Shown: piece after piece, positions 20,234 to 42,200 of the stretch
Layout: every line of letters starts with the position of its first letter
Numbering within the stretch: the first letter of the stretch is position 1
NCBI GenBank assembly: GCA_016182095.1
Contig: JACOXY010000013.1
Span: 1-55,405 of the forward strand
Length of the DNA: 55,405 nt
Direction of reading: 5' to 3'
DNA from: Candidatus Liptonbacteria bacterium
GTDB taxonomy: Bacteria > Patescibacteriota > Minisyncoccia > UBA6257 > JACOXY01
Notes under the pieces: model-generated
The model's input: only the letters and a program-made list of their open reading frames with translations
The model's database searches: none
What the model was told of the DNA's origin: nothing
Translations under genes and position numbers: made by a program

Positions 20234-20542
20234 AGGAGTGTGAAATACGAACAAAATCAATTGAGCGGAGCGAATTTGGCAAATATTCAAGGCGCGAGGA
20301 GGAGATTAGTAGCTTAAGCTACAGCTCCGACGAGTCCCGTTAGAAAGTCATCTTTCTAACGGGACGAGCAACGCTGAATATTTATCAAATTCGCCCGCCC
20401 CTCCGGGGAAGCTAAAAAATGGGTGATTTTCTTCGTTACTCTTCCTTAATGTATTCTACGAATACAATTTCGTCGTCGTGCCTTGAAATCATCTCATTTT
20501 TTAGCTTCTCAAGCTGATTTATGTTCGTATTTCACACTCCTA
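20233..20542. mobile_element. MITE-like structured element, copy A (310 bp)
   Basis: Perfect 20-bp terminal inverted repeats TAGGAGTGTGAAATACGAAC. Inside are two further foldback arms: GCGAATTTGGCAAATATTCA with its complement near 20375-20400, and AAGCTAAAAAATG/CATTTTTTAGCTT enclosing GTATTC-TAC-GAATAC. It carries a nested palindrome CCCGTTAGAAAG...CTTTCTAACGGG. It fills the gap between the stop of the L,D-transpeptidase gene and the start of rpe exactly. No open frame of its own. Copies B (51359) and C (26316) are homologous. Confidence 0.85.
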
Positions 20543-26315: not shown

Positions 26316-26441
26316 CAATGTATTCTCCGAATACAATTTCGTCGCTCGCCTCGCTCACGCCTTGGCGAAGCGGGCCATGCCTTGAAATCATCTCATTTTT
26401 TGGCTTCTAAATTTGATTTATGTTCGTATCTCACGCTCCTA
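26316..26441. mobile_element. MITE-like structured element, copy C (right half only)
   Basis: Homologous to the last third of copies A and B, from the GTATTC-TCC-GAATAC hairpin to the terminal repeat (minus strand TAGGAGCGTGAGATACGAAC). A short extra palindrome interrupts it near 26345-26370. Its terminal TAG is the stop codon of the SpoU methyltransferase gene. The left half is missing. Confidence 0.75.
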
Positions 26442-26930
26442 TATTCCATAAGCCACAATTCCAAAAGCAACAGCCACATTTAAAGATTCCTTGCGACCCA
26501 ACATCGGAATTTCCAGAATTTTATCGGCTAATTTCAATATATGCGGCGAAAGACCGCTAACTTCATTGCCCAAAACAAGCGCGACGCGGGGGACTTCGTA
26601 AGTTCTTTGGGACTTACGAAGTCCCGAGGATCGGACCTTTACCTTATAGTAAGGAATTGATTTTGCATTCTGTTCAACCACGAAAATTTTATAACCGTCT
26701 TTTTTTAGTTTCCTAATAACCGAAACTGCGGAACGCGAATATTCCCAGGGAACGGTTTTTTCGGCTCCCAAAGAAACTTTTATGAGCTGTTTCCGCGCGC
26801 ATCCAAATCTATCAAGCGGCGCCGGCGTAATGCCGCAGAGATAAATTTTCTCCACGCCGACCGCATCGGCAGTGCGAAAAATGGAGCCGACATTATGTAA
26901 ACTTCTTATGTTGTGCAAAATCACCGTCAT
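26439..26930 (-). CDS. SpoU/TrmH-family RNA 2'-O-methyltransferase
   Basis: A knotted SPOUT methyltransferase acting on rRNA or tRNA ribose. Motif 1 HNVGSIFRTADAVGV, motif 2 VALVLGNEVSGLS, motif 3 IPMLGRKESLNVAVAFGIV are complete, so it is a minimal 163-aa enzyme without an RNA-binding extension; the target is unknown. Start MTVILHNIRS is preferred over a Met nine codons upstream. Between motifs 1 and 2, VRSSGLRKSQRTYEV is encoded by a 14-bp-arm palindrome. The stop TAG is supplied by MITE-like copy C. Confidence 0.88.
   Translation of the reverse strand: MTVILHNIRSLHNVGSIFRTADAVGVEKIYLCGITPAPLDRFGCARKQLIKVSLGAEKTVPWEYSRSAVSVIRKLKKDGYKIFVVEQNAKSIPYYKVKVRSSGLRKSQRTYEVPRVALVLGNEVSGLSPHILKLADKILEIPMLGRKESLNVAVAFGIVAYGI
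26590..26625. repeat. Palindrome inside the SpoU methyltransferase gene
   Basis: GGGACTTCGTAAGT and ACTTACGAAGTCCC, perfect 14-bp arms around 8 nt, in frame within coding sequence. Related to those in mutM. Confidence 0.85.
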
Positions 26931-26966
26931 ATATTGAAAAGCAGGGCTCCTCACCAAGCAAGGCGA

Positions 26967-27046
26967 AACCCCGCACTAATTTTTTAATTTTACAATAGAA
27001 TTACCGAAAATAAAGCCGAAGCCAAATTAGTTCACTGCTTGGGGTT
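26967..27046. repeat. CCCCGCACTAA inverted repeat
   Basis: AACCCCGCACTAATTT and AAATTAGTTCACTGCTTGGG...GTT pair with a bulge. The CCCCGCACTAA core is shared with the element at 16624-16735. No gene is seen in 26931-27140. Confidence 0.55.
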
Positions 27047-27140
27047 GAGGCGGTTTCCGCGAAATAGACAAAATAATTGAAAACAAGGCTAAGGTTTTAA
27101 TGTGTTGAAGTCGAGGGACAGAAAATGTTGGGTGTCTGAA

Positions 27141-27169
27141 TTGACAAAATATACTTTCTCTGCTAACAT
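27141..27169 (+). promoter_or_regulatory. Promoter of the 27217-27435 gene
   Basis: TTGACA, 17 nt, TAACAT. Confidence 0.7.
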
Positions 27170-27216
27170 AGCAAGCAGTTCTGCGGTTCAACTTATGTCA
27201 ACCAAAGGGGGTTGTT

Positions 27217-27435
27217 ATGAAGTGCTCTCAATGGAAGAAGTTCTTGGTCGGCTGCAAGGGGCTTGCCATGATCCTGGGGTTCTTTTTCATCGTCCCTTTT
27301 CTCGGGGCCATGATTATGGGAACACCGATCACCATGGAGTTGGTGAAACAGTGCCTTGTGCCCCCTTCAATTCTTGCTACGGGATTCTTAATCCTGCTCT
27401 GCTTTATGCCTGGAAATGGAGCGGGGTGGTGGTGA
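27217..27435 (+). CDS. Small two-helix membrane protein (72 aa)
   Basis: Not recognised. Two hydrophobic helices (about residues 15-36 and 46-64), a basic N-terminus (KCSQWKKFLVGCK) and a Gly/Trp tail. ATG follows AAAGGGGG by 5 nt. Full cassette format with a TTGACA promoter and a UUCG-capped terminator 11 bp after the stop, but without a long leader hairpin. A longer overlapping frame from 27102 lacks these signals. Confidence 0.65.
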   Translation: MKCSQWKKFLVGCKGLAMILGFFFIVPFLGAMIMGTPITMELVKQCLVPPSILATGFLILLCFMPGNGAGWW

Positions 27436-27446
27436 TCCGTAGGGGT

Positions 27447-27472
27447 GCCCGGTTCTTCGGAACTGGGCTTTT
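27447..27472 (+). terminator. Terminator of the 27217-27435 gene
   Basis: GCCCGGTTC-TTCG-GAACTGGGC stem followed by TTTTTC. Confidence 0.85.
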
Positions 27473-27491
27473 TCTATTCCTACTCCCCCTA

Positions 27492-27695
27492 AAATATTTT
27501 GCCATGCAAAATATTCGGGCGATCATTTCGCCAATAGCGAAATGATTTAGCCATGACATTTTTTATATCATCCCACGACAGAAATTGTCATGGGGAATAA
27601 TTTTTGCTTTATTTATGGAGCTTTTCGGGCACTTTTCTGAAAAATCCTTTCTGTCCTTTCATGTTATTTCGGTAATTTATAGAAAATGTCATGGG
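27492..27695. repeat. Cluster of hairpins and an inverted repeat, no gene
   Basis: AATATTTTGC-CATG-GCAAAATATT (27492-27515), ATCATTTCGC/GCGAAATGAT (27522-27546), and a larger CCATGACATTTT (27551-27562) / AAAATGTCATGG (27683-27694) pair with an internal direct repeat near 27593. I see no gene in 27473-27776. Confidence 0.65.
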
Positions 27696-27776
27696 GATTT
27701 TTCTTGCTTAATTTCGTCAACTTTTATACTATACATTCAGATTGTACCTTGAACAATTAAATGGAGGTAACACGAG

Positions 27777-28367
27777 ATGCCGTATGACGAAAATTTTTAT
27801 CGAATGTACCGTGAATACCTACAAGAACAGACGGTGCGCCGTAATCATGATCATGTATTCTCCCTATTTGCATCACTGCTGTTGCACGATTCACCGCGCG
27901 TAATGGATCTTGGTTGCGGTATCGGTGAATATGCAACTTATGACCAGCAACATGCCGCGTATGTAGGGGTTGATCTCAATAACACCGGCTCAGTGATTCC
28001 TTTTGTACAGGCAGACTATCTAAAACTTAATTTTGGAAATCTCTTGCCCTTCTTGCCAAACGCTTTTATCAGTTTATTCTCGATTGAATGTTGTCATTCA
28101 TCGGAAAGCAAGTACACTCTCTACAATCGTATTTTCTCGACCTTCCCTGCTGTAAAGTATGGGCTAGTTGGCGGATTTTTTTATGAATCGCGGCGTAATC
28201 AGGAAACCGTATCAGAAGCCGGAGAAATCGTAAGTTATCAAACTATCGAAGATCCGTCGCTTCATATTTCTCCACTATTTACGGAGCTGCGCATCCATAT
28301 TCGGACACCATCTCGAATGTTTGGAAATGATGTCATTGAAGTCTGGAAACTCCTCGTGCGGAAGTAA
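27777..28367 (+). CDS. SAM-dependent methyltransferase
   Basis: A class I Rossmann methyltransferase of 196 aa. Motif I VMDLGCGIGEY (about residues 42-52), motif II acidic turn YVGVDLN, then VQADYLKLNF. The catalytic region has IECCHSSESKYTLYNRI, with two adjacent Cys. The substrate is unknown. ATG follows GGAGG by 9 nt; TATACT upstream serves as the -10. With its terminator at 28381 it has cassette format. Confidence 0.78.
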   Translation: MPYDENFYRMYREYLQEQTVRRNHDHVFSLFASLLLHDSPRVMDLGCGIGEYATYDQQHAAYVGVDLNNTGSVIPFVQADYLKLNFGNLLPFLPNAFISLFSIECCHSSESKYTLYNRIFSTFPAVKYGLVGGFFYESRRNQETVSEAGEIVSYQTIEDPSLHISPLFTELRIHIRTPSRMFGNDVIEVWKLLVRK

Positions 28368-28380
28368 TCACTCCTGCTAT

Positions 28381-28411
28381 ATCGCCAAGGCTCTGCCGCG
28401 GCGATTTTTTT
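28381..28411 (+). terminator. Terminator of the methyltransferase gene
   Basis: ATCGCC/GGCGAT stem with an imperfect loop followed by seven T. Confidence 0.7.
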
Positions 28412-28435
28412 ATCGTCTATCTCCCATGACACTTC

Positions 28436-31400
28436 TTATTCTTCAAGCCCCACCCGCATAAACCAATCGGCGCTCGCGGTAGGATAGGGAATTCTAAAAG
28501 ACGGGCAATAACTGCCGTTGCATTCGCCTGATGGGCCAGAGGCAGCCACACCATCCTCAAAATCTCCGGCAGTTGAGATTGCGTTCTGGAAAGAGGTCCG
28601 GTAATAACCGACTGGATTGTCATAGCGCGCGTCAAGCACAAACCAATAAGTTTGATTGGCTTCGACTGTTACCGGATCGGCAAAATAAAACACACTGTTT
28701 CCGGATTCCGTCTCGGCAATTTTGTTTGAAAAATCCGGCTTATTTGCTCCATTATCATCATAAACAGCGAGTCTATAAGAGGCGTCATCACCTCCGTTGT
28801 TCCGCTGTATATCAAGCAAAACTTTATTAAAACTTCCCTCTTCTCCTGAAGATATACTCTGTAAACTCGCCGAGTCAATCAGTCCCCCGCCGCACACCGA
28901 ACAATTAATATTAATCCTGCCCCAAGGATAACTCCAGCCGTCTTGATTCAACTGCTCTATTAAAAATCGGATTGGCGGGCGAGACCATTCTTTAGTTAGT
29001 ATATTGGAATAATTTCCAAAATCATCCCTAGCCCTTACGCCTATCAAAAATCGTTCGCCAGGTAAAACTACTCTGCTCGTCGTGGTAGCATGCCCCAAGT
29101 TTTGCCAATCTTGATCTAAAAAATCAGCGTGAGCCGAGTTTGACTCGGAGGAGGTGGAAAAATTAACTTCATATTTGACAAGGTTCGGCTCTGTATCTGG
29201 GTCTTGCGCATCGCTCCAATTAAGATTGATGCTTCCGGATTTAGCATATTCCACATTAATCTCTCCGCTTAATTCGGGTGCCAAGTGTTCCGGCGGATTG
29301 CCGTTAAAAAAATATTTGGTTTTATCAACCGTGAGCAGTTTGAAATTATTAAGTGCCCCGTCCTCAACCCTCGTCCCCTGCGGATAGCTTCTGTAAAAAC
29401 CGTAATAGGCAACAGTGAGATATCCATCCGCCCCAAAATCAGCATCACCATAATTACCTATCCTGAAAATGAGTCGGTTTAGAGTACCGGCCAAATATTT
29501 ACCGAACCGCAGCGCGTCGTTCATAAATCCTCCCCAAATGCCGCACTGGCTTTCGTCGTCAGGCAAAAGCAGAGAAGACTTGTAGCTTAAGATGCCAACA
29601 CAGCTCTCATATTCCGTAAAAAGCGCGTCGCTTAAATTTTCGGGTGTGGGACGCGCGCTATCTAAGAATTCATCTTTCGGCGCTTCTTTGTTTTTGTAGA
29701 AAACTAGAACTTTCCAATTAGCTCCGTGATCCCGCGAAGTTAAGTCGGGCAAAAACGGGTAATTATTATATCGTAATTCAACTACCGGCGCATTGCCAAA
29801 AATTGAGCTTGTCGGGGCCTGATAAAAATAAATTCCCGATAAAATTCCCGGCACTTCAAAATCTTTGAAAACTTCGTCGCTCGCAAGTCCGTCTTTATCT
29901 GCCGCTTGAATTGAAAATCTATAGCCTCGTCCAACTTCGTCAATCCGTCTTTCAAAAGCAGTTGAGGTGCCGTTATATATAGAAACGCCAGAGCTATTAT
30001 ATTCTTTAACTTCGTAAGTAAAATAGTTAGCTACTGAACTAGATTCAATAGTTCCCGAGCTTGTCGAGGGACTACCACGCCAATTAAAAATCAGCGCGAG
30101 AGAGCTCGTGCTGAAGCTAACTTCCAAATCATTTACGGCGGCCGGGGCATCGCGCGGCTCCGGCAAACTCGTGCTATTTTGCGGTTTGGGAATTTCGCGC
30201 GCTTCAAAATCATTGTTGGAGTCGGCGTCGCATCCATTCCCCAAAAACTCGTTTTCATTTTGCGGCAAAACACAGGAACTGTTTTTGAAAGCTTTGCGCT
30301 CCAAGCTCTTGCCAGCTTCAATTTCGCCATATGTTATGTCATCAACTACTTCCGCAGTCGCGTGATCGCCGTTGTAAAGCAAAATTGAGTTATTGGTGTA
30401 AGCGATACTCGCCGATTGGGCGGAGTATCTTAAATCCGGCTCCACGTTCCCATTATAAGAAGGACTTGCGATTAGAAAAAATCTTTTGGGGAGAATCGTT
30501 CCGGCGAAAACTCCGTCATCCACAAGGTTGCTCTCACTGCCCGAAGAAGTTTTTTTGCGTAGCTCCCATCCGGTTAAATCAACGGCTGTTTCGGTTGGAT
30601 TATAAAGTTCAATAAACTCATAATCGGAAGCGTTAGTGGCGCCAGCTTGAATTTCGCTTATTACAATATGATTCGTTGTCATATTTGTCGTATCAGACAT
30701 ATTAGACGTATCCGTCGCGCTGGAAGCATTGGCAGTATTGTCATCTGCTTGAGTTGAAGAAGGTGGCGGTGAAGCCGACGCGCCGCCACCGGACCCGCCA
30801 GAAGGATAAGTTGAGTTTTCCGCCTTGGGAGTGCCGTTCGTGACCGAACTCGACTGCCATCCAAAACCATAAATACGCTCCATGGTATTTTTGGTGGAAT
30901 TATTTCCGGCAGGCCAACTGCTTGCGGCAATAACCTCATCCATTAAGCCGCATTTATTGTCAAAAAGGCGAAGACCCTCGCCAGTATTCGCGAGCGCGCC
31001 GCTATAAATGAAGTCAGCAGCAATACCAGGCACCGTGTCATCGTCGGCGCGCTCCAAAAGCAAAAACTTGCCGGCTTCGAGCTTAGTGCCAGAATCAATA
31101 GTGATATGAATTTGTTCCTCCTTATCTATAACTTGCCAGCCGGAAGCATCGACCGGGGTACCGCTTATGTTTTTCAATTCAATCCATTCGTCATTCGCGC
31201 TATTTGTCGTACCCATCCAGGCAACTTCATTTATAATAATCCCCGCGCGGCTTGGAGTGCCGGGGACGCCATATGAGCAAGTTGAAGTCCGATCTCCCGG
31301 AGGTAGTTCCTCCGCTGGAGGTGTGACCTCCCCATATTGGCTCTCCTCGTCAGACGCTCCAGCCACTTCTCCGGTTTGCGTTTTAGGAAGAATAGTAACA

Positions 31401-32632
31401 GAAACTGAAGTTCCTAATTCCTCATAATCATTAGACGTATCAGATACGTCATTATTTAATGGAATAACTTCTATTAGATTCGCGGATTCTGTCACCGAAC
31501 CGCCTCCATTATCGCCAAACAACGAATCCCACCAACCGATTACAGCATCAATTGTATTTGCAAAAAATGATTTTTCCGCCTCATTATTATAGCGGCCATC
31601 TTTCTCGGCCGCGGCAACTTCTTTAAAAAACAGATCAATTAAGCCGGCACCGTGCCGAACTGCGCTGGTTGAGAGGAGGGACCAGTAGTTTTTTAGAACA
31701 AGACTATCGGGATCTGATAAGGTTATGTCAGAACGAAGCACCGTAACCAAATCACCGTATCTTGCATACATAAAGAGCAGCTGCGTATTTCCTTCTTCAT
31801 CTTCTTTAACAGCAAAAACTCGGCCACTAATTTTTGTCGGAGAGTTTGAGCTCGGAATAGGCAATTCGTACCCGCTTGATACCCCAATTCTATTTTGGCT
31901 ATAAAAATTATTATTTGAGTACTTCGCCATCACGTTGAAATAATTATCAACGCTATCCTGAACAATCGGCGCCATCCCTGTTAAGCGTGTTTTTAATTCT
32001 TTGTCGGGACTTTCCAAACCAAAAGCTCCGGCGAAATTTTCATATGGGCTCCTATCCCATTCGCTCCCAGGATGGGGATCATTTCGGGTGTGATCGGGAA
32101 CTGATGCGTCCTCTAATAAGTGCAGGACGTGGCCCAAGATAAACATGGCTTTTTCTTTGTCGCCTCGCGCGTAGTACTCCACTGCCCTCTCCCAGGTAAA
32201 GTCCGACTCGGTGGTTAGCGCTCCCAACTGTTTTTCCTGCCAGGCGGTTAAAATAGAAGTTATAAAAGCATAAGCCTTATAGCGAGTCTCTGTTTGCTTC
32301 TCTGCATCCTCGGCCCACTCTTTTGACCTATAGCCATCTCCATAAATAGATGTGAGCCCGGTGTCGTTAATAGGATCATAAAAATGATTAAGCCACCTTG
32401 GCGCGTCATCCTCGCGCCTTGAGCCGTCAATCAAGAATGGTTTTAAGTTTTCCGAAATTTTATTATTCTGATAGCGCTCGTTATAAAAATCAAAAATTTC
32501 CGAGGTTAAGTAGGCGTGCGTCCCAACTCCATACGCCAGCGCCTCGTTTGCACTTACAAAAGCTCCGACAGTAATCGGAGCAATAAACAGAGCAAAAAGT
32601 GATATTTTATTTCTTGCACCAAGGCGCTTCAT
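28436..32632 (-). CDS. Large exported protein: zinc phospholipase C-like domain, two lamin-tail domains and beta modules (1398 aa)
   Basis: Signal peptide with cleavage after EALA. Residues 34-240 resemble zinc-dependent phospholipase C/S1-P1 nuclease: GTHAYLT, LNHFYDP, GHVLHLLEDASVPDHTRND and SPYENFAG give the His/Asp/Glu metal ligands. Two lamin-tail (LTD) domains follow (about 465-600, starting IIINEVAWMG, and about 650-790, starting HIVISEIQAG), then fibronectin-like modules and a C-terminal beta domain with SGEEGSFNKVLLDIQRN. Ser/Thr-rich linkers join them. No sortase or membrane anchor is seen at the C-terminus. A role in attacking or binding host-cell surfaces is an inference. No Shine-Dalgarno site; a TATAAC box is 14 nt upstream of ATG. 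Confidence 0.8.
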   Translation of the reverse strand: MKRLGARNKISLFALFIAPITVGAFVSANEALAYGVGTHAYLTSEIFDFYNERYQNNKISENLKPFLIDGSRREDDAPRWLNHFYDPINDTGLTSIYGDGYRSKEWAEDAEKQTETRYKAYAFITSILTAWQEKQLGALTTESDFTWERAVEYYARGDKEKAMFILGHVLHLLEDASVPDHTRNDPHPGSEWDRSPYENFAGAFGLESPDKELKTRLTGMAPIVQDSVDNYFNVMAKYSNNNFYSQNRIGVSSGYELPIPSSNSPTKISGRVFAVKEDEEGNTQLLFMYARYGDLVTVLRSDITLSDPDSLVLKNYWSLLSTSAVRHGAGLIDLFFKEVAAAEKDGRYNNEAEKSFFANTIDAVIGWWDSLFGDNGGGSVTESANLIEVIPLNNDVSDTSNDYEELGTSVSVTILPKTQTGEVAGASDEESQYGEVTPPAEELPPGDRTSTCSYGVPGTPSRAGIIINEVAWMGTTNSANDEWIELKNISGTPVDASGWQVIDKEEQIHITIDSGTKLEAGKFLLLERADDDTVPGIAADFIYSGALANTGEGLRLFDNKCGLMDEVIAASSWPAGNNSTKNTMERIYGFGWQSSSVTNGTPKAENSTYPSGGSGGGASASPPPSSTQADDNTANASSATDTSNMSDTTNMTTNHIVISEIQAGATNASDYEFIELYNPTETAVDLTGWELRKKTSSGSESNLVDDGVFAGTILPKRFFLIASPSYNGNVEPDLRYSAQSASIAYTNNSILLYNGDHATAEVVDDITYGEIEAGKSLERKAFKNSSCVLPQNENEFLGNGCDADSNNDFEAREIPKPQNSTSLPEPRDAPAAVNDLEVSFSTSSLALIFNWRGSPSTSSGTIESSSVANYFTYEVKEYNSSGVSIYNGTSTAFERRIDEVGRGYRFSIQAADKDGLASDEVFKDFEVPGILSGIYFYQAPTSSIFGNAPVVELRYNNYPFLPDLTSRDHGANWKVLVFYKNKEAPKDEFLDSARPTPENLSDALFTEYESCVGILSYKSSLLLPDDESQCGIWGGFMNDALRFGKYLAGTLNRLIFRIGNYGDADFGADGYLTVAYYGFYRSYPQGTRVEDGALNNFKLLTVDKTKYFFNGNPPEHLAPELSGEINVEYAKSGSINLNWSDAQDPDTEPNLVKYEVNFSTSSESNSAHADFLDQDWQNLGHATTTSRVVLPGERFLIGVRARDDFGNYSNILTKEWSRPPIRFLIEQLNQDGWSYPWGRININCSVCGGGLIDSASLQSISSGEEGSFNKVLLDIQRNNGGDDASYRLAVYDDNGANKPDFSNKIAETESGNSVFYFADPVTVEANQTYWFVLDARYDNPVGYYRTSFQNAISTAGDFEDGVAASGPSGECNGSYCPSFRIPYPTASADWFMRVGLEE

Positions 32633-32675
32633 GTTCTAAGTTCTAAGTTATAAGTCCTTTGTTCTTTCTCAAATA

Positions 32676-33212
32676 CTACATACTTTCTATTTTCCATACA
32701 TTAGATTCTTCGTCTAACTTAAAAACTATGGTCTGGTACGCATCAGAATTTTCATCTCGTATTTCAAACCATTTTGTGTCATTAGACAATTCTTCCTTAG
32801 ATTCAACTGGCTTTGCTGCTAATAAACCATTGGCTATTTCTTGTAGCCTCCCATCTTCTTTGGCTTTTAATAAAGCTTCCTCCCATTTTTTTCTCGTCAA
32901 AAAATACTCCTGGTTTTCGGCAGTGAAATTCAGATCAAGCATAAAATATTTAGAGGCAAGGTCTACGTCTTCTTTCCGCAAAGCAGCGATAAAAAGATCC
33001 AGTGTTTCTTGCGGAGTCTTCCCGCCATAGGTGTCCGCTTTAAGCGCGGCCTTAATATCGTCGCTCAACTTTTCAAAGTTCTTGGCGGTTTGTTCTATGT
33101 TAATTTTATCGCGGCTTCCATAGTAATAATTCCACGCGGCATATACGGCCAAAATCCCCGCGATAATAAGCAAAAATAACGCCGCTGATTTTAAAAAATG
33201 TTTCCCTTCCAT
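32676..33212 (-). CDS. Membrane-anchored orphan protein (178 aa)
   Basis: Not recognised. One N-terminal helix (about residues 10-30), then an Asn/Lys/Glu-rich helical domain (SDDIKAALKADTYGGKTPQETLDLFIAALRK) and a C-terminal beta hairpin (YQTIVFKLDEESNVWKIES). The shape suggests an extracytoplasmic NTF2-like/DUF4878-type domain, not provable here. It lies 44 bp upstream of the large exported protein on the same strand and may be its operon partner. The left arm of an inverted repeat ends 6 bp before the ATG. Confidence 0.6.
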   Translation of the reverse strand: MEGKHFLKSAALFLLIIAGILAVYAAWNYYYGSRDKINIEQTAKNFEKLSDDIKAALKADTYGGKTPQETLDLFIAALRKEDVDLASKYFMLDLNFTAENQEYFLTRKKWEEALLKAKEDGRLQEIANGLLAAKPVESKEELSNDTKWFEIRDENSDAYQTIVFKLDEESNVWKIESM

Positions 33213-33217
33213 ACCCC

Positions 33218-33352
33218 ATCTAACGACATCGCAAGTCGTAAATTAATTTCTTCATTAAAAATCAATGATTGACTGTACCAAATTCCTACAAACGGTGTCA
33301 AGCGACAGCTACCACCACATCCACCATTTAACGACTTGCGATGTCGTTAGAT
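33218..33352. repeat. Long inverted repeat with CGACATCGCAAGTCG core
   Basis: ATCTAACGACATCGCAAGTC... (33218-33243) and its complement (33326-33352), about 26 bp with one mismatch, enclose 82 bp. The core GACATCGCAAGTC equals the palindrome inside mutM at 41908. No gene lies within. Confidence 0.8.
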
Positions 33353-33384
33353 AAGAAATGTGCGACCTATCTTAAAAAAGAAAA

Positions 33385-33405
33385 GCCCCCGCAAAGAGCT
33401 GGGGC
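33385..33405 (-). terminator. Terminator of the FAD oxidoreductase gene
   Basis: GCCCCAGC/GCGGGGGC stem; on the minus strand TTTTCTTTTTT follows. Confidence 0.8.
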
Positions 33406-33425
33406 GCTAATCTGGAAAATTTATT

Positions 33426-34607
33426 CTAAGAAAACAGCTCATCTCTAACATAATCTCCGATTACAGTCGCGCAAGTAAGTCCGGGAGAGTCCGCCATCAC
33501 ATGGCGCAACCCAGGGAACATTTTGTCGCGTTCAATAATAAAGTCGTCCTTGGGCAATTTCAGCTTAGCGCGAATCCCTATATAGCCTTTTTCCAAATCA
33601 TCTGCTCGCAATCCAGGTATAATACATGCCATGGCGTCTGCAAAATGCTCTGGTCCATGTATAAATGTCTTATAGTCGGTTAAGCTGTCGCATGGATCAG
33701 CGGTGGGCCCAACAAGAACAGTGCGGCCTATAACCGGTTTTCGATCGGCATCAAGCTCAAATGTAGGCGTGAGATGAATACCAACCGAAAAATATTCATG
33801 TCCGTCACGCTCGGCATATTTAGGCGTCGTATAAACATTCATTCCGCGCAAGTAAAGTTCAGGACGTTTCAATTTATTAAAGGTATAGTATTCTCCACGA
33901 AGCGGCTGAATTTCATAAGGGTTTTCAGGATTCACCATCTTCGCGATTTTTGGCGCGTAAAGTCCGGCGGCATTTACAAGATTATATGTGCGAAAGCAAT
34001 ATCTTTCATTCCGCTCCACAACCGATACCTCAAAACCGTGCGCGGTTGACGGATTGATGCCGACAATTTCCGCGTTTTTTATAATGGTAACACCTGCATC
34101 TACAGCGAGTTGTTCCAATCTGTTCACATAGGTTGCGGCGTCAAACACCCCGGAGGTTGGCGCAAGCAAGGCCGAGCGCCCGCGGACATTCGGCTCAAAC
34201 GATGGAATTTCATGCCCAGGAATAATTTGAACATGCGGCACACCATTTTCTTTGGCGCGCTGTAAGTAGAATTCCAAAATAGATTCGTCTTCGGGAGTAA
34301 CCGCGACTACCATCTTTCCCCCAATCGCGGAGTGATAGGGAACGCCATGTCGCAGAAAAAATTCTTTTGACTTTCTATTCCCTAAAACGCAGAGTCGCGA
34401 CTTAAGCGTTCCCGGCGGGTAATAAATATCGGCGTGATTTACGCCCGAACTATGTGTCGTTTGCTCTTCGCCAAGACACGCATTTTTTTCAAACAGATAG
34501 ACGGTGTCTTTCTGTCTTTCATATTTTCCAGCAAGTTTCCATGCGCTCACGGCTCCAAGAACCCCTCCGCCGATAACGACGACCGGAAGTTCAATCCGTG
34601 AGTTCAT
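33426..34607 (-). CDS. FAD-dependent oxidoreductase, L-2-hydroxyglutarate dehydrogenase-like
   Basis: A DAO-family flavoprotein of 393 aa. The FAD Rossmann motif VVVIGGGVLGAVSAWKL is at residues 9-25; TTHSSGVNHADIYYPPGTLKSRLC and LRGEYYTFNK match the LhgO branch, which oxidises L-2-hydroxyglutarate to 2-oxoglutarate. The C-terminal GIRAKL...DFIIERD and SPGLTCATVIGDYV complete the flavin site. An isolated 2-hydroxyacid oxidase is odd in a genome with no visible TCA genes here. It overlaps the upstream gene by ATGA, so it is translationally coupled. Confidence 0.82.
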   Translation of the reverse strand: MNSRIELPVVVIGGGVLGAVSAWKLAGKYERQKDTVYLFEKNACLGEEQTTHSSGVNHADIYYPPGTLKSRLCVLGNRKSKEFFLRHGVPYHSAIGGKMVVAVTPEDESILEFYLQRAKENGVPHVQIIPGHEIPSFEPNVRGRSALLAPTSGVFDAATYVNRLEQLAVDAGVTIIKNAEIVGINPSTAHGFEVSVVERNERYCFRTYNLVNAAGLYAPKIAKMVNPENPYEIQPLRGEYYTFNKLKRPELYLRGMNVYTTPKYAERDGHEYFSVGIHLTPTFELDADRKPVIGRTVLVGPTADPCDSLTDYKTFIHGPEHFADAMACIIPGLRADDLEKGYIGIRAKLKLPKDDFIIERDKMFPGLRHVMADSPGLTCATVIGDYVRDELFS

Positions 34608-34993
34608 GGCGTAAATGCCCTCCGTTGTAAAGACAATTGCGCCACTCTATGCCCACAAGCGCGACATTTGTATGTTTTGGCATAGCTGAAAACTCTGAGC
34701 ATATCCGCTTTCGGACGCCATTCGCCGCACTTCGCGCAAATAAACAAACTCATTTTTTCAAAATCATAAATAGCGCCTGAAACCCATTGAAAATCATCCA
34801 TTTTACCGGCAACATCAAAATGAACGCAGAGCATCCCCGCGCGATTGCAAACCTTTAAAATTGTAAGTCCTTTGGCCCGCGGGTCCTTCAATTTTTCGGC
34901 CATGTCAAGCAAAAATTTCTTCCAGCCGGGACCAGCTCTTTTATGAGAGCACTTGATGCGCAGAAGAGGCAGACGAACGCCTTTGCGGCCCAT
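34604..34993 (-). CDS. Zinc-ribbon orphan protein (129 aa)
   Basis: Not recognised. Basic N-terminus, a central alpha/beta segment (AEKLKDPRAKGLTILKVCN), and a C-terminal zinc ribbon: CAKC near residue 86 and CRAC near residue 110. ATG follows AAGGAGGGTGGA, a strong Shine-Dalgarno site. Its stop overlaps the start of the FAD oxidoreductase (ATGA) and both end at one terminator, so this is a two-gene cassette-format operon. A nucleic-acid or metal role is only suggested by the ribbon. Confidence 0.65.
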   Translation of the reverse strand: MGRKGVRLPLLRIKCSHKRAGPGWKKFLLDMAEKLKDPRAKGLTILKVCNRAGMLCVHFDVAGKMDDFQWVSGAIYDFEKMSLFICAKCGEWRPKADMLRVFSYAKTYKCRACGHRVAQLSLQRRAFTP

Positions 34994-35257
34994 TCCACCC
35001 TCCTTTTCTTATTAACTTAAAAACTTCTGATTAGATCGTAGCTCACAGGATTTCATTTTGCAATTGCGCAGTATTCTTGAATTAGTCCGAACGCATTTTT
35101 CCGAAAAAATCCCCCCGCGAAAATTCGGAAAAGCGGCGGCTCGTACTGAGCGAAGTCGAAGTGAGCCGCACCGCTGACAATTTTCCGCCAGAGGCGGATC
35201 TGCCTCTGGCATGACAAGTTTTTCTTTGGCGGCAAATTCAATAACAAAAAAGTATTT
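34994..35257. repeat. Palindrome-rich intergenic stretch
   Basis: Nested palindromes: GCGGCTCGTACTGAGCG/...AGTGAGCCGC (35152-35185), CCAGAGGC-GGATCT-GCCTCTGG (35188-35211) and TTTTTCCG/CGGAAAA types near 35095-35130. No gene seen. Confidence 0.55.
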
Positions 35258-35887
35258 TTAAAGCGGCTGGAATGTCATAATCATTTCTTTGAGAGTATCC
35301 TTTTTCTCAAGATGACTCTGAAATTCAACAAGTCCATTATTTACACACAAAACGATATGATACCTTTCTTGTTCACCACCAATCCAACCATAAGTAGCGT
35401 TAAACTCTATTCCTTGGTAATCGTGGATAGTAATAGGCGTAACAGCCTTTGCACTAAATCGTTCTTGGCAACTTCTCTTATCTTGAGTAGAAATCGAAGT
35501 TCCTTTCAAAGAATAATCATCTTCTGCAAATTTTATATCAGTCGGCTCAAAATAAACAACGGCTTTAAGGGGAACGTATTGATCTTGCGACGGGAATTGC
35601 TTCGCCCCTTCTCTAGGAACGCTAATTGGGTAATAAAATTTCCAGTTAGCAGGATATTTTATTTCGTATTTGTATTCATCATTAGAATAAGTTTTCCAAC
35701 TAGAAGTTATGCTCTGTGGCTGTGTAGTATTGGGCGACGGATTCGGCTTAGATACTTGGGGCGATTGAGATGGAATTGGTTGCCGATCTGGCAATCCTTG
35801 CTTGTTCAAAATCATCAGATACCCAAAGACACCAAGAGAAACGACGACAACGATAGATATTATGACTATGAGTTTATTTTGAAACAT
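35258..35887 (-). CDS. Membrane-anchored protein with PsbP-like domain (209 aa)
   Basis: An N-terminal helix (residues 6-26), a Pro/Ser/Gln linker (about 30-63) and a C-terminal domain starting WKTYSNDEYKYEIKYPANW. The last is the typical opening of PsbP/MOG1-like beta domains common in extracytoplasmic proteins of CPR bacteria and Firmicutes. It ends KDTLKEMIMTFQPL, also typical. Two Cys (SCQE, LCVN) may pair. Function unknown; likely faces the outside of the cell. Confidence 0.7.
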   Translation of the reverse strand: MFQNKLIVIISIVVVVSLGVFGYLMILNKQGLPDRQPIPSQSPQVSKPNPSPNTTQPQSITSSWKTYSNDEYKYEIKYPANWKFYYPISVPREGAKQFPSQDQYVPLKAVVYFEPTDIKFAEDDYSLKGTSISTQDKRSCQERFSAKAVTPITIHDYQGIEFNATYGWIGGEQERYHIVLCVNNGLVEFQSHLEKKDTLKEMIMTFQPL

Positions 35888-36039
35888 AGATGATTAAAAA
35901 ATTTTCTTCCCCCAAAATGCAGAATCGCCAATTCGTTTTTACCCCCAAAATTGAATGCGAATTAGTCGCCGAGTCCTTCGATTTTGCTCAGGATAAACTC
36001 CGCGAGGCAAACCAAAGCTCCTTGACTTTTCCTTTCTGG

Positions 36040-36113
36040 TGCGCCCGGAGGGACTCGAACCCCCAACCCTCTGGTTCGAAGCCAGATACTCTATCCAATT
36101 GAGCTACGGGCGC
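36040..36113 (-). tRNA. tRNA-Arg (anticodon TCG)
   Basis: Complete cloverleaf on the minus strand: GCGCCCG/CGGGCGC acceptor stem, anticodon loop CTTCGAA in a TCTGG/CCAGA stem, and GGTTCGAGTCC T arm. CCA is not encoded. Confidence 0.93.
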
Positions 36114-36195
36114 ATTATCTCCTTATAGTATGCAAAAATATAGACTTCGTCAAAGTTTTTTGATATAATATGCGGGTAAATATCCTGGCTCCGAT

Positions 36196-36268
36196 GCGCC
36201 CATAGCTCAATTGGCAGAGCAGCTCGCTCTTAACGAGAAGGTTCCAGGTTCGAGGCCTGGTGGGCGCA
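36196..36268 (+). tRNA. tRNA-Lys (anticodon CTT)
   Basis: GCGCCCA/TGGGCGC acceptor stem, D arm TAGCTCAATTGGCAGAGC, loop CTCTTAA, and GGTTCGAGGCC T arm. It lies 50 bp upstream of recG. A TATAAT box sits about 30 bp upstream. Confidence 0.92.
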
Positions 36269-36273
36269 CACTT

Positions 36274-36317
36274 CAACGGATTCAGTGTAAACACCTCAAC
36301 AAGCTCAGTGTAAACAA
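36274..36317 (+). repeat. Tandem CAGTGTAAAC repeat between tRNA-Lys and recG
   Basis: Two imperfect units TTCAACGGATTCAGTGTAAA and CTCAACAAGCTCAGTGTAAA, back to back; the second ends 1 nt before the recG ATG. Confidence 0.7.
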
Positions 36318-38513
36318 ATGTTCAAGCTTGATACCAACATACAAGAAATAAAAGGCATACCGCCGAAATTCGCGAAGAAGCTCTCAACATTAAAAATTGA
36401 AACCGTAAAAGATCTCTTGTGGCACTTCCCGGCGCGCTACGAAGATTACTCAAAAATTTACAATGTAGAAGAACTGATACCCGGACAGCAAGCCACGATA
36501 AAAGGTGAAGTTCAAAAAATAAACACTAAACGTACCTGGAGGCGACAAATGCTTATAACCGAAGCACGCATCGCCGACATGACCGGCGTGATTCGCGCTG
36601 TGTGGTGGAATCAGCCATACATAGAAAATAGTTTACGGATTGGAACCGTTGCTAATTTTGCCGGCAAAATCCGCGAAGATGGCGACGGTTTTTATTTCTC
36701 TAATCCGGCCTATGAAATGATCCGTAGCAACAAAGAAACCAGGCACACCGCGAGACTAGTGCCGATTTACCCCGAAACAAGGGGGCTAACCTCAAAAGGG
36801 ATCAGATTTCTTATGAAGCCGATACTGGAGCGATCGGAAGAAATTAAAGAATTTATACCGAAGAAAATCTTAGAAGAGCGCGGGCTCCCGGAAATAAACA
36901 GGGCCATAAGCGCGATACACTTCCCCATAACGATAGAAGCGGCCCTAAACGCTAAAAAAAGATTTGTGTTTGAAGAACTGTTCCTACTACAGCTCTTGAA
37001 CATGAAGCAAAGACAAGCCATGGCAAAAGAAAAAGCTCCGACGCTCACAGTTAACAACGAAGAATTTCAAAAAATTATAAATAGCCTGCCGTTCCCGCTA
37101 ACACAAGCGCAAACAAGGGTTCTCACAGAAATATTTAATGACCTAAAGAAACCGACTCCCATGAACCGGCTCTTGCAGGGAGATGTAGGATCCGGGAAAA
37201 CCGTAGTAGCGGCTCTTGCGGCTTTAGCCTTCGCTTACAATAATTATCAGACGGCTTTTATGGCTCCAACGGAAATCCTGGCGCGACAGCATTATGAAAC
37301 TTTCAAAAAACTGCTTGCTCCTCTCAACCAAAAAGTGGGCATCGCTCTTTTAACCAGCAATGAAGCGAAAGTTTTTGGTGAAAATGATTTAGAAGAAGAA
37401 ACCACTAAGAAAAAAGCCAAGGAGGCGGTGGAGAATGGCAAAATTAAAATAGTTTTGGGAACACACGCCCTTATACAAAAAGATGTCCTGTTCAATCGCA
37501 TAGGACTCGCAATAATTGATGAGCAACACAGATTTGGAGTACGCCAGAGATCACAGTTATTAAAAAGCGTGCAGAAAGAAAAATTGCTGCCACACCTCCT
37601 GTCAATGAGCGCAACCCCAATACCAAGAACTCTAACGCTCACTATTTTTGGCGACCTTGATCTTTCGGTTATAGATGAGATGCCAAAAGGCAGGCAACCA
37701 ATTATCACAAAAGTTGTGGCGCCAGAAAACCGCGGCAAGGCTTATGCGTTCATAAAAGCCCAGGTAAAAGCCGGCCGGCAAGTATTTGTAATTTGTCCAC
37801 GTATTGAATCTAGTTCTGAAAATGAGAAGTCTTCGCTATCCCCCATGCCCCATACCCCATACCCTTCCTCATGGGCCGATATAAAAAATGTAACCGAAGA
37901 ATACGAAAAATTATCCAAAAAAATTTTCCCGGACTTAAAAGTGGCGATGCTCCACGGAAAACTAAAGCCAAAAGAGAAGGGGGAAATTATGTCCGCCTTC
38001 GCCTCCTCCTCCGCTAAAGCTATGGGGGACAAGAAAGGTTCAGCGGATAAGAAAAATAAAATTGATCTCCTAGTTTCAACTTCGGTTGTGGAGGTGGGAG
38101 TGGACATCCCAAACGCTACTATAATGATGATTGAGGGGGCTGACAGGTTCGGCCTGGCACAACTTTACCAATTTAGAGGCCGGGTCGGACGCGGAGAACA
38201 CCAATCGTTTTGCCTTCTGTTTACAAACTCTTCATCAAAATCTACTAAGGAAAGATTAGGGGCTCTGGTAACGGCAAAAAATGGTTTTGAGCTCGCTGAA
38301 ATGGACTTAAAAATCCGCGGACCTGGAGAATTTTTGGGATCTAGCCAAACCGGTATGCCGGACATAGCCATGCGAGCCCTGCAAAATATGGAACTAATCA
38401 AAGAAGGACGCTCCGCGGCGGAAGCTGTGCTGGCTAAAAGTTCAGATCTAAAAAAGTATCCGTCTCTTCGGATAAGAACGGCCGAATTTGAAAAAATCAT
38501 CCATCCGGAATAA
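36318..38513 (+). CDS. recG: ATP-dependent DNA helicase RecG
   Basis: Regresses stalled forks and unwinds branched DNA. The wedge/OB domain is at about residues 1-150, then helicase motifs: GDVGSGKTVVAALA (Walker A, about 290), MAPTEILARQH, DEQHRFGVRQR (about 402), MSATPIPRT, and VVEVGVDIPNA with QFRGRVGRG. Full length at 731 aa. Two segments, SSLSPMPHTPYPSS (about 507) and ASSSAKAMGDKKGSADKK (about 562), break otherwise normal sequence. They are encoded by CCCCATACCCCATACCC and by a TCCGCT/AGCGGA palindrome of the kind found between genes. The start abuts a tandem repeat, with no Shine-Dalgarno site or -10 at leaderless spacing. Confidence 0.95.
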   Translation: MFKLDTNIQEIKGIPPKFAKKLSTLKIETVKDLLWHFPARYEDYSKIYNVEELIPGQQATIKGEVQKINTKRTWRRQMLITEARIADMTGVIRAVWWNQPYIENSLRIGTVANFAGKIREDGDGFYFSNPAYEMIRSNKETRHTARLVPIYPETRGLTSKGIRFLMKPILERSEEIKEFIPKKILEERGLPEINRAISAIHFPITIEAALNAKKRFVFEELFLLQLLNMKQRQAMAKEKAPTLTVNNEEFQKIINSLPFPLTQAQTRVLTEIFNDLKKPTPMNRLLQGDVGSGKTVVAALAALAFAYNNYQTAFMAPTEILARQHYETFKKLLAPLNQKVGIALLTSNEAKVFGENDLEEETTKKKAKEAVENGKIKIVLGTHALIQKDVLFNRIGLAIIDEQHRFGVRQRSQLLKSVQKEKLLPHLLSMSATPIPRTLTLTIFGDLDLSVIDEMPKGRQPIITKVVAPENRGKAYAFIKAQVKAGRQVFVICPRIESSSENEKSSLSPMPHTPYPSSWADIKNVTEEYEKLSKKIFPDLKVAMLHGKLKPKEKGEIMSAFASSSAKAMGDKKGSADKKNKIDLLVSTSVVEVGVDIPNATIMMIEGADRFGLAQLYQFRGRVGRGEHQSFCLLFTNSSSKSTKERLGALVTAKNGFELAEMDLKIRGPGEFLGSSQTGMPDIAMRALQNMELIKEGRSAAEAVLAKSSDLKKYPSLRIRTAEFEKIIHPE

Positions 38514-38553
38514 TCTAAGCGGTCCCGCTTATTGAATATTAAGCGGCGTCGTC

Positions 38554-40284
38554 TTATTGTCCCGCCAAAAGGGTAATGCTAAAAACCGATTCATCTTTTC
38601 TGACGTTGAGTGACCCACCCGAATCTTGGCGCGCCCAGACTTCAATATAATCATTCGCCGCAAGCCTTAATCGGGAGCACTCATGCAAAATAGTGGGCTC
38701 CTGGCCAGACGATACTGAATTTATCTGCGTCGTAGTTGCCGATCCGCCGTTAATATAAAATATAATTCGGCGCGCGTCGGTACTATTCGTGGCAAAACTA
38801 ACATTAGCGCAGACAAGATAGAGCCCCCCCGCGGGAATGGTGAAACGACTATTATTGGTAACGCTATCATGTAACCCGCCAAAGTCTTCGGTTTCGGTAT
38901 CCCAAGTAAGCGCGGTCCAGGTAGCGTTCGTTACTGATTGGTTGGAGCTTTTTTTAACTTCTGCCGTTCTTTGGGCTGCAGCGGATGTCGCCTGCCAGCT
39001 CGCGTTCCCACTCGCGTCAGAAGTTAAAACATAGCCGTTAGAAGCGCCGGTAGGAAGTTTGAACCCATTCACCGTTGCCGTTCCAAACACCTGTAACAAA
39101 GAAGACGGGGTTGTAGTTCCGATACCGACATTACCATTTTCATCAATCCTTATTCTGCTTGCCAAACCACTGCCATCTATTTTGGTGGCAAAATCAAGCG
39201 ATCCTCCCCAATTACCATTGGTAACCCCTTCAGTAAACGATCTTATGTTGGCTATTCTTACTCCATTAGTTCCCAATATGTTAGCCGCGGCGCTAAATGC
39301 AACGTCGGCCTGAATCACTCCGTCTCCTCCGGCCGCGTTTCCTGTAACTTCCAATACCACATTGCTATTGCTATTTCCGTAAACATTCAATTTCGTGTTA
39401 ATGACATTAGGATCAATATTTAAAGTTCCAATACCAACTTTTCCGGTATTATAATAAATATTATTGCCATTCGCCCCCCACTGGTCCCCCAGATTCCTCC
39501 AGGAACCGCTTGCATATTCCCTGAAAACGCTGCTTGCGGTGTTGTAATAAATTGACCCGTTTTGTCCTTCAACGGGATCCGCGGATAATTGCCCAACATT
39601 TAAAAGATTAGATATGTTGATATTTTTCCAGCGTGAAGGAGAAGAGAGACCGACGCTATAAATATTATCCTGTCCCGGGATTATGTCCGAATCAAAAACT
39701 GCCGCGGAGACGCGTGCTATAGTTGTCCCAAAAGATTTTGAAAAGGCGTACTTTGGATTATCCGAGTTAAAAGACAGCGTAAAATCAACCTGAACGGCAT
39801 TCTTGGCCAGCGAATTGTAAATGCGGCGGAAAACAAGCGAGCCCGCATCAACAGTAACATTTTCATTGGTAAGCCGGTTCGTTGTGGTGGATATAGTATA
39901 AATGCCAGAGCCAGGCGGCGGGGCCTCGACTGTTGTGCCTTCATCCATCCAAATAGCAGTGCCGGAAGCGTAAAAAGCCACATAGTCGCGGTTAGAATCT
40001 TTATGCCTAATAACAAGCACCGCAATCGGGGTATTGGTCGCTATATCTATAAGACTTGAATCTCTTACCTCTCTTTGGATCATTTGCAAAACAAACCTTC
40101 CTTGTTCGGAAACCTCCCTCGCGGAAGTGCCGCTATTTTGAATTCTTAAAATGGCAAACAGAATGCCGACAATGGAGCCGATTACAATGGCAAAAATGGC
40201 CACATATAAAATCATCTCTAGAAGGGTGGCGCCTTTTTGTTTCTGCGAAATACTTGGAATCTGATATCCGGCATCTGGCATCAT
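38554..40284 (-). CDS. Prepilin-like protein with phage tail-fibre-like and C1q-like C-terminus (576 aa)
   Basis: Start MMPDAGYQ chosen because TGTTATAAT ends 6 nt before it (core format). A type IV prepilin signal QKQKG|ATLLEMILYVAIFAI is near residue 20, with the helix continuing to about 50, as in PilW/GspJ pseudopilins. After residue 250 it changes to tail-fibre-like repeats: KVGIGTLNIDPNVINTKL, NVGIGTTTPSSLLQV and SNGYVLTSDASGNASWQ. The last 135 residues (RTAEVKKSSNQSV ... GGLYLVCANVSF ... LRLAANDYIEVWARQ) look like a C1q/TNF jelly roll. This would put an adhesive tip on a pilus-like filament; that role is inferred. Confidence 0.82.
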   Translation of the reverse strand: MMPDAGYQIPSISQKQKGATLLEMILYVAIFAIVIGSIVGILFAILRIQNSGTSAREVSEQGRFVLQMIQREVRDSSLIDIATNTPIAVLVIRHKDSNRDYVAFYASGTAIWMDEGTTVEAPPPGSGIYTISTTTNRLTNENVTVDAGSLVFRRIYNSLAKNAVQVDFTLSFNSDNPKYAFSKSFGTTIARVSAAVFDSDIIPGQDNIYSVGLSSPSRWKNINISNLLNVGQLSADPVEGQNGSIYYNTASSVFREYASGSWRNLGDQWGANGNNIYYNTGKVGIGTLNIDPNVINTKLNVYGNSNSNVVLEVTGNAAGGDGVIQADVAFSAAANILGTNGVRIANIRSFTEGVTNGNWGGSLDFATKIDGSGLASRIRIDENGNVGIGTTTPSSLLQVFGTATVNGFKLPTGASNGYVLTSDASGNASWQATSAAAQRTAEVKKSSNQSVTNATWTALTWDTETEDFGGLHDSVTNNSRFTIPAGGLYLVCANVSFATNSTDARRIIFYINGGSATTTQINSVSSGQEPTILHECSRLRLAANDYIEVWARQDSGGSLNVRKDESVFSITLLAGQ

Positions 40285-40365
40285 AGATTTATTATAACAC
40301 AAACTAAACAAAATCATTGCCAAATGTGGAAAAATGAGGTAAATTATGTAAAACTAATTACAGAT

Positions 40366-40402
40366 GGTCCCATCGTCTAACGGCTAGGACATGCCCCTTT
40401 TT
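40366..40402 (+). pseudogene. 5' fragment of a tRNA-Glu
   Basis: GGTCCCATCGTCTAACGGCT onward matches the 5' half of the intact tRNA-Glu 80 bp downstream for 23 nt (CCATCG...GGACAT). It breaks off at the anticodon arm, where the left arm of an inverted repeat begins. Confidence 0.75.
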
Positions 40403-40404
40403 CA

Positions 40405-40546
40405 TCCCTCACTCAAACTGGATTAGGCGCGGCACCCATCGACACGGCGCCATCGTCTAACGGCTAGGACATCGCCCTTTCACGGCGGAAATACGGGTTC
40501 GATTCCCGTTGGCGCTACTCAATAATAATCCAGCTTGAGTGAGGGA
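40405..40546. repeat. CCCTCAC/GTGAGGG inverted repeat enclosing tRNA-Glu
   Basis: TCCCTCACTCAAACTGG (40405-40421) and CCAGCTTGAGTGAGGGA (40530-40546), one mismatch. The intact tRNA-Glu lies inside. The sequence after the right arm (AAGCGGCAAAATAGGG) vaguely resembles a tRNA 3' half. Confidence 0.75.
40446..40517 (+). tRNA. tRNA-Glu (anticodon TTC)
   Basis: GGCGCCA/TGGCGCT acceptor stem (with a G-U pair), D arm TCGTCTAACGGCTAGGA, anticodon loop CTTTCAC in a CGCC/GGCG stem, and GGGTTCGATTCCC T arm. CCA is not encoded. Confidence 0.92.
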
Positions 40547-40664
40547 CAAGCGGCAAAATAGGGCTACACAAAGTAAAGCCGGCCAAATTCATCTTGGCTA
40601 GTTTTACTTTACTTTTTATTTTATCCACAATGGCAAGACCTGCGCTGTGTTATAATGAAAGCAT

Positions 40665-41279
40665 ATGAAATACTTTTTATTGTTTGTCGTTTTCGCAGCC
40701 GCGGCTTTTGGAGGAGTCTGGGCATATAATAATTTCAGTGATGATTCTCTGGCAACCCCAGGAGCTCCAGCGCCAGGGACACCCCCCACAGCACCCACAA
40801 CGCCCACAACGCCACCGGGCGGGGGAACTCAAATTGCCGCCACGGGTTGTTACAATTATGGCACAAAACTAGACGCGCCTGTTAAGTGCCCCTATAACAC
40901 GCCCTCATGCACCTCTGCTGGTGGCTGTGTGACACAGTGCGGATCCTGCTCATATAATATCTGTGAAGCGCCAAGCGGCGGCCCGCTTAAGAAATGGTTC
41001 CCAACTCCCTGCGACACCACGCCAAGCCCATTCTTTGGACACATAAAATCAGATTCGGAATTCCAGAGTTGTCTTGCGAGCACCTTTGGACAGCCAGCCG
41101 TGGACGACTGGGTTCTTGGGAAAATTGTAGTATGGCCGGCAGACGCTCTCACCCCAAAGGATAATCTAATCACCAAGGATTTTACTACATGTTACGACGG
41201 ATACTATAAGCGATTTTGCGCGAAATTGAGCCCGCAAGTGAGGACGAGTACATATAAGAGCTTGTGCGATAAGTATTAA
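40665..41279 (+). CDS. Cys-rich secreted or membrane-anchored orphan protein (204 aa)
   Basis: N-terminal helix (residues 2-18) followed by a Pro/Thr linker (about 28-52) and a domain with twelve Cys (CPYNTPSC, GGCVTQCGSCSYNIC, then six more to SLCDKY at the C-terminus). This pattern suggests several disulfides, so export to an oxidising outside is likely. Family unknown. Core format: TGTGTTATAAT ends 8 nt before ATG. Confidence 0.7.
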   Translation: MKYFLLFVVFAAAAFGGVWAYNNFSDDSLATPGAPAPGTPPTAPTTPTTPPGGGTQIAATGCYNYGTKLDAPVKCPYNTPSCTSAGGCVTQCGSCSYNICEAPSGGPLKKWFPTPCDTTPSPFFGHIKSDSEFQSCLASTFGQPAVDDWVLGKIVVWPADALTPKDNLITKDFTTCYDGYYKRFCAKLSPQVRTSTYKSLCDKY

Positions 41280-41327
41280 ACAGATAATTCATAATGAATA
41301 AAATGCTTCGTGTTGATGCGGAGTATT

Positions 41328-42200
41328 TTATTTTTGGCATTTTGGACAAAAGTGGAATGGGCGCCCGTGAAGTGTGGCGCGAACAATTTTAGTTTCGCAT
41401 CTCGGACACGGCTCCCCCTCTCTACCATAAACCAGACGCAATACATAATAATTTCCGGGCTTCCCAGTTACATCCGCATAATCGGACATTGAAGAGCCGC
41501 GTAATTTGATTGCTTTTCTCAAAATTATTTTTATTGAATCATGCAGGATCTTTATCTCATTTTTCTTTAGGCTTTTCGCGCTCCGTAACGGATGCAGGCG
41601 CGATAAAAATAAAATTTCATCGGCATAAATATTGCCGATACCCGCCAGGATTTTTTGATCTAAAAGCGCTTTTTTTATACAAATCTTTCGCCCAGCAAGA
41701 GATTTTTGAAAATCGACCAATTTTATCAGCAGAGCATCAGGGCCCACATCAAGGCCCAATATTTTGGACTTCGTAGGTCCAGCGGACTTACGAAGTCTTG
41801 GGGCAGAAGCAGCTAAAATTTTTCCGAATTTTCTGACATCCAAAAAAGCCAAAAGCTTGTTGCCCGATAAATAAAAAATAGCGTGGATATAGGGGCTGCG
41901 CTTTTTTGACATCGCAAGTCCATCGGACTTGCGATGTCTGGATATTAAAAGCAACTTTCCGGTCATTTTAAGATGAATGAGCATCAATTTACCATCCAAC
42001 AACTCAAAAATAATATTTTTCCCAATGCGCTTAACGCTTTGTATGGTTGCTCCCGACACTTGCCGCCGGAAACTTACAAATCCCCCTTTGTGACGCGAAA
42101 AATGCCGCGGCCAATCGGTCCAGATATTTATAATTTTTTTGCCGCTAACTTTTTTATTCAGTCCGCGGACTATTGTTTCAACTTCTGGTAATTCGGGCAT
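41328..42200 (-). CDS. mutM: Formamidopyrimidine-DNA glycosylase
   Basis: Excises 8-oxoguanine and nicks the site. Catalytic N-terminus MPELPEVETIVRGL, the Lys-containing LIHLKMTGKL, helix-two-turn-helix GIGNIYADEILF, and C-terminal zinc finger CPRCETKIVRA...FCPKCQK are intact. 290 aa. Two segments between the domains, SRHRKSDGLAMSKK (about residue 93) and SAPRLRKSAGPTKSK (about 140), are each encoded by a palindrome and look like in-frame insertions in surface loops. Core format: TACAAT ends 6 nt before ATG. Confidence 0.95.
   Translation of the reverse strand: MPELPEVETIVRGLNKKVSGKKIINIWTDWPRHFSRHKGGFVSFRRQVSGATIQSVKRIGKNIIFELLDGKLMLIHLKMTGKLLLISRHRKSDGLAMSKKRSPYIHAIFYLSGNKLLAFLDVRKFGKILAASAPRLRKSAGPTKSKILGLDVGPDALLIKLVDFQKSLAGRKICIKKALLDQKILAGIGNIYADEILFLSRLHPLRSAKSLKKNEIKILHDSIKIILRKAIKLRGSSMSDYADVTGKPGNYYVLRLVYGREGEPCPRCETKIVRATLHGRPFHFCPKCQK
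41766..41797. repeat. Palindrome 1 inside mutM
   Basis: GGACTTCGTAGGTCC and GGACTTACGAAGTC around AGC. Same family as the SpoU-gene palindrome. Confidence 0.85.
41908..41938. repeat. Palindrome 2 inside mutM
   Basis: GACATCGCAAGTCC and GGACTTGCGATGTC, perfect arms around ATC. The core equals that of the intergenic inverted repeat at 33218-33352. Confidence 0.85.

Follow-up and report, generated by a model that had tools for sequence, protein, structure and literature searches.

REP/REPIN-like palindromes lie in frame in protein-coding genes of a Candidatus Liptonbacteria genome and match palindromes at RAYT transposase loci of its relatives

Repetitive extragenic palindromic (REP) sequences, and the REPINs (or BIMEs) formed from them, are short dispersed palindromes, single or in inverted doublets, that accompany a low-copy Y1/HUH transposase gene bordered by its own palindrome, the REP-associated Y1/HUH tyrosine (RAYT) transposase (Nunvar 2010, PMC2817692; Bertels and Rainey 2011, PMC3116915; Quentin 2018, PMC6006769). 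Such palindromes can also lie within genes. Di Nocera et al. 2013 (PMC3733652) described intragenic REPs, including RPE-4 and RPE-6 of the Rickettsia palindromic elements (RPEs), and noted DNA-repair genes among the carriers, while Quentin et al. 2018 (PMC6006769) reported in-frame REPs within TnpA_REP genes of subclass 2.4 and some of subclass 2.8, generally between the HuH and Y motifs. Here we analyze a stretch of 55,405 nucleotides (nt) from Candidatus Liptonbacteria bacterium (assembly GCA_016182095.1, contig JACOXY010000013.1, positions 1 to 55,405 of the forward strand; hereafter the window), in which related palindromes occur in frame inside two protein-coding genes and once between genes. 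These hairpins are probably copies of REP/REPIN-like mobile palindromes belonging to RAYT transposases of this lineage. Intragenic REPs, and REPs within some RAYT subclasses, have been published before; what this analysis adds is the type of RAYT, the site of insertion, and the lineage, for which we found no description of either in the open-access literature.

The palindromes of the window and the genes that carry them are the following.

26439..26957, minus strand: SpoU/TrmH-family RNA methyltransferase gene with insert (Pfam PF00588, SpoU_methylase, E 1.9e-34)
26590..26625: compact inverted pair of REP-like units, a 36-nt hairpin in frame in the SpoU/TrmH-like gene, coding for ...GLRKSQRTYEV...
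33218..33352: intergenic inverted doublet, arms 33218-33242 and 33328-33352 with an 85-nt spacer
41328..42200, minus strand: mutM (formamidopyrimidine-DNA glycosylase) gene with two inserts (Pfam PF01149, PF06831, and PF06827, Fapy_DNA_glyco/H2TH, and PDB alignments)
41766..41797: compact inverted pair, mutM site 2, coding for ...LRKSAGPTKSK..., left flank CCCAATATTTT
41908..41938: compact inverted pair, mutM site 1, coding for ...RHRKSDGLAMSKK...

The two mutM hairpins measure 31-32 nt, and all three gene hairpins fold stably as single-stranded DNA (-12.1 to -16.6 kcal/mol; z of -6.5 to -8.1 against shuffled sequence). The arms of the intergenic doublet, 25 nt each, are 96% complementary, and every arm is a small hairpin itself. 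An earlier note on this DNA had listed these four places, named the two genes, and proposed that the palindromes share a core. All four places were found again, Pfam supports both gene names, and a 13-nt core, GACWTCGNARGTC, matches seven times in the window, against an expectation of 0.00 from 100 dinucleotide shuffles.

The core is not confined to the window. The 893-kb genome to which the window belongs (G000) contains 23 exact matches to GACWTCGNARGTC and none to the reversed control; with up to one mismatch allowed, the counts are 38 and 8. Matches were clustered and read in context, and a genic copy was called firm when it lay inside an intact, homology-supported gene. Firm copies are present in genes for a carbamoyltransferase, asparagine synthetase (asnB), glyA, murB, SpoU, a methylpurine-DNA glycosylase, mutM (two copies), a GH100/GDE-type glucosidase, an O-antigen ligase-like protein, and murC (two copies, from two related palindromes). 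Weaker copies fall in UvrA and a glycosyltransferase, and about seven more have no long open reading frame (ORF) over them. Single one-mismatch matches in the ORFs of EF-Ts and RpoA were dropped because the reversed control has eight one-mismatch matches.

The genes that share this core are unrelated to each other, and both strands and several reading frames carry it. It recurs in two forms: units paired head to head in a compact arrangement around a short center, and units paired tail to tail at a distance of about 25-40 nt. Either form often bears an outer CCCAAT..ATTGGG; genic elements of the family span 31-54 nt. These compact and spaced pairs resemble the inverted doublets of REP/REPIN systems. 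Unlike in those systems, at least half of the copies here are inside genes, a tally biased by the fact that a gene-breaking copy would appear intergenic, and the copies per genome number tens rather than hundreds. As with the intragenic REPs of Di Nocera et al. (PMC3733652), unrelated genes, several of which serve DNA repair, contain single palindromes and doublets in frame, whereas the lineages and the palindromes differ. The invaded repair genes of G000 are mutM, methylpurine-DNA glycosylase, and uvrA, numbers too small to test. Genomes of the order range from 0.5 to 1.4 Mb. At C11:11126 and C23:41819 of G000 are compact palindromes, TTACGAAGTCTCACTTCGTAA, in which the core halves are rearranged and over which no long ORF runs.

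Alignments with relatives and with PDB homologues indicate that most of the testable genic copies are in-frame insertions. At the SpoU palindrome, relatives lack between 9 (nearest) and 12 (most compact) residues exactly at its position, and PDB homologues lack about 12 residues of the insert. Site 2 of mutM has 7 residues more than relatives; site 1 has 9 more than PDB homologues and a net gain of about 2-6 over the nearest relative. The earlier estimate of about ten added residues per element therefore suits SpoU and neither of the mutM sites. The glyA product exceeds its nearest relative by 5 residues and others by up to 18, with the segment absent from PDB SHMT, and murB presents a similar picture. 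Further, asnB of the relative G001 carries three in-frame palindromic segments (30, 39, and 45 nt) that are missing from G000, its nearest relative, along with a fourth that both genomes share and that has decayed in G000.

Two further cases were seen in passing. In the relative G007, a compact inverted pair (C10:28880) is in frame in an ORF that, from its sequence, we take to be peptidyl-tRNA hydrolase (GLRKSNGLPKS). The glyA gene has a second insert, QSELDHERPVVSVAEPSRRV, in G000 only; its DNA, GTGAGCGTAGCCGAACCAAGTCGAAGGG, belongs to another type of repeat.

The association with RAYT transposases comes from relatives of G000. In G001, G004, and G009, each RAYT locus has three copies of the core, one upstream, one downstream, and one inside the coding sequence, and the RAYT genes of relatives score above the cut-off of Pfam Y1_Tnp (Y1/HUH transposase). 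This is the arrangement known from REP/REPIN-RAYT systems, a low-copy transposase gene bordered by its own palindrome. A PDB sequence search with the RAYT returned no homologue. The cleanest link from a transposase to genic inserts is the RAYT on contig C15 of G001, whose palindrome has seven exact copies in that genome. Three of these belong to the RAYT locus, another three lie in frame in ORFs elsewhere, and the seventh is covered by no ORF of 100 amino acids or more. The host ORFs are asnB and two that, as read from sequence, are presumably miaA-like and cysteine-desulfurase-like.

The situation in G000 differs for the GACWTCGNARGTC family. Its only RAYT has another palindrome, CTACGGGGTCNGACCCCGTAG, which occurs just three times, with one copy before the gene, one within it, and one after it. 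We rejected this RAYT as the mobilizer of the GACWTCGNARGTC family, since its palindrome is different and all three copies are at the RAYT itself. The G000 assembly therefore lacks a transposase cognate to the window family, and the founding RAYT of the family appears to have been lost from the window's own genome.

We collected 54 RAYT loci from the order and the phylum and formally tested 51 for words of 14 nt or more common to the coding interior and the flanks of the same gene. In 33 of the 51, the flanking palindrome is also present inside the gene, in frame; codon-shuffled controls shared such words in 12 of 2040 trials (0.6%), and different RAYTs shared them in only 15 of 1056 pairs. 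In 26 of the 33 the internal copy occupies one and the same loop, ahead of the HUH motif, and six have one after the Y motif. The insertion site is therefore conserved and the palindrome RAYT-specific: it differs from one RAYT to another yet equals the copies that flank it.

An in-frame REP inside the transposase gene is the feature shared with TnpA_REP subclass 2.4 (RAYT group 4; PMC6006769). The insert of that subclass generally lies between HuH and Y, unlike the position before HuH that predominates here, and its motifs (NH[IFV]H, WQ, YIxNNP) differ from those of the order's RAYTs (NH[YF]H, FQ, YIHxNP). The latter resemble subclass 2.1 (NH[YF]H, FQ, Y[IV]HLNP), reported not to be associated with REPs (PMC6006769), in a likeness judged by motifs only. 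We tentatively suggest, as a possibility rather than a probability, that in this phylum a clade of RAYTs with subclass-2.1-like motifs retains, at a fixed in-frame site within the transposase gene, a palindrome of its own that changes in step with the flanking copies, and that life inside coding sequence would be a built-in property of the system (for example, self-regulation or a donor site) and not chance survival. The internal copy may be kept by self-regulation, by use as a donor site, or simply by hitchhiking with co-conversion.

What would connect the observed dispersal, in-frame insertion, RAYT association, and internal RAYT copy is mobilization by RAYT. By extension from the established biochemistry of RAYT and IS200/IS605 transposases, the RAYT would recognize the hairpin on single-stranded DNA and cut and join near it, and copies would insert at new sites, frequently in the form of inverted doublets some 30-50 nt long. 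Selection would then remove copies that shift the frame or strike a structured core, leaving those with a net length that is a multiple of three to persist in variable loops. In-frame survival within genes would thus be owed to purifying selection, helped by the core GACATCGCAAGTC, which contains no stop codon in any of the six frames.

To our knowledge, it is not settled what moves gene-invading palindromes in the case of the Rickettsia elements. The inserts described here match palindromes of a named transposase type, and the palindrome-bordered RAYT of relatives points to a route of spread. Since G001 combines a RAYT with exact in-frame copies of that RAYT's palindrome in other genes, the mobilizer can be tested. 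The inserts also show a way for tightly packed small genomes to gain new protein segments, and the copy within the transposase, with its conserved site and RAYT-specific sequence, offers a natural set for studying the co-evolution of palindrome and transposase.

Several observations weigh against mobilization by RAYT. Movement itself was not observed, and the G000 assembly, which is 97.5% complete, contains no RAYT cognate to GACWTCGNARGTC. The RAYTs reach 38.4-44.6 bits with NCBIfam NF047646 (REP_Tyr_transpos), below its cut-off of 80. The flanks of the core family read TAAG, AACG, TTGG, and similar, and the canonical 5' GT[AG]G foot of REPs was not seen in them; the family is therefore not a canonical GTAG REP. 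Lastly, the lepA copy (C13:90239) was rejected as an insertion, since G001 has the same length and similar residues there without the palindrome, in a gapless alignment.

The lepA copy is what one would expect if the palindromes were ordinary coding sequence, palindromic by chance or selected as mRNA hairpins, with no insertion at all. The glyA palindrome, in a loop of variable length, and mutM site 1, whose loop varies freely in length among relatives, also speak for this reading, with loop positions judged from alignments. The earlier note had named relatives carrying the same residues without the palindromic DNA as the sign of such ordinary evolution; we found that sign at lepA, a copy outside its list, and did not find it for SpoU, asnB, or glyA. 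The clean extra segments in SpoU and asnB, together with a 13-nt core that recurs far above chance across unrelated genes, both strands, and several frames, largely refute this explanation, which we regard as highly improbable. Miniature inverted-repeat transposable elements (MITEs) of a classical DDE insertion sequence with short palindromic ends are very unlikely too, and rank just ahead of it. They would account for the MITE-like inverted arms and 85-nt spacer of the 33218-33352 doublet, and another MITE-like repeat is present in the window (20232-20543 and 51359-51677). However, the variable spacing of the doublets and the occurrence of single palindromes suit REP/REPIN better than MITEs of fixed length, the aligned asnB sites show no apparent target-site duplication, and the transposase at the loci read around the core in G001, G004, and G009 is a RAYT, in a reading that did not include a search for DDE transposases.

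The earlier note had likened the palindromes to RPEs, and for their behavior the comparison holds: a dispersed family of related palindromes lies in frame in unrelated protein genes and is therefore RPE-like, and RPE-4 and RPE-6 are themselves classed as REPs (PMC3733652). That the family is a true branch of the RPEs, spread by an unknown mechanism, is nevertheless the least probable of the explanations considered. RPEs are described as ~150 bp long and in ten families (PMC10969869), against 31-54 nt in genes here, a distinction made by size description only, and the cores match RAYT palindromes of relatives. REP/REPIN-RAYT systems are the better match, since cognate palindromes both border and sit inside the RAYT genes of relatives.

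Other repeats were seen besides these REP/REPIN-like palindromes. In murC (G000:C13:18.7-18.8 kb), a first-family REP has a member of a second palindrome family (CTCGCCTCGCT...GGCGAAGCGGG) nested in it, with the frame still open; this second family also occurs between genes in the window at 26337-26380. The MITE-like repeat at 20232-20543 and 51359-51677 is about 300 nt long with 25-28-nt inverted ends, TAGGAGTGCGAGATACGAACAAAATCAA, and has a partial copy at 26316-26443.
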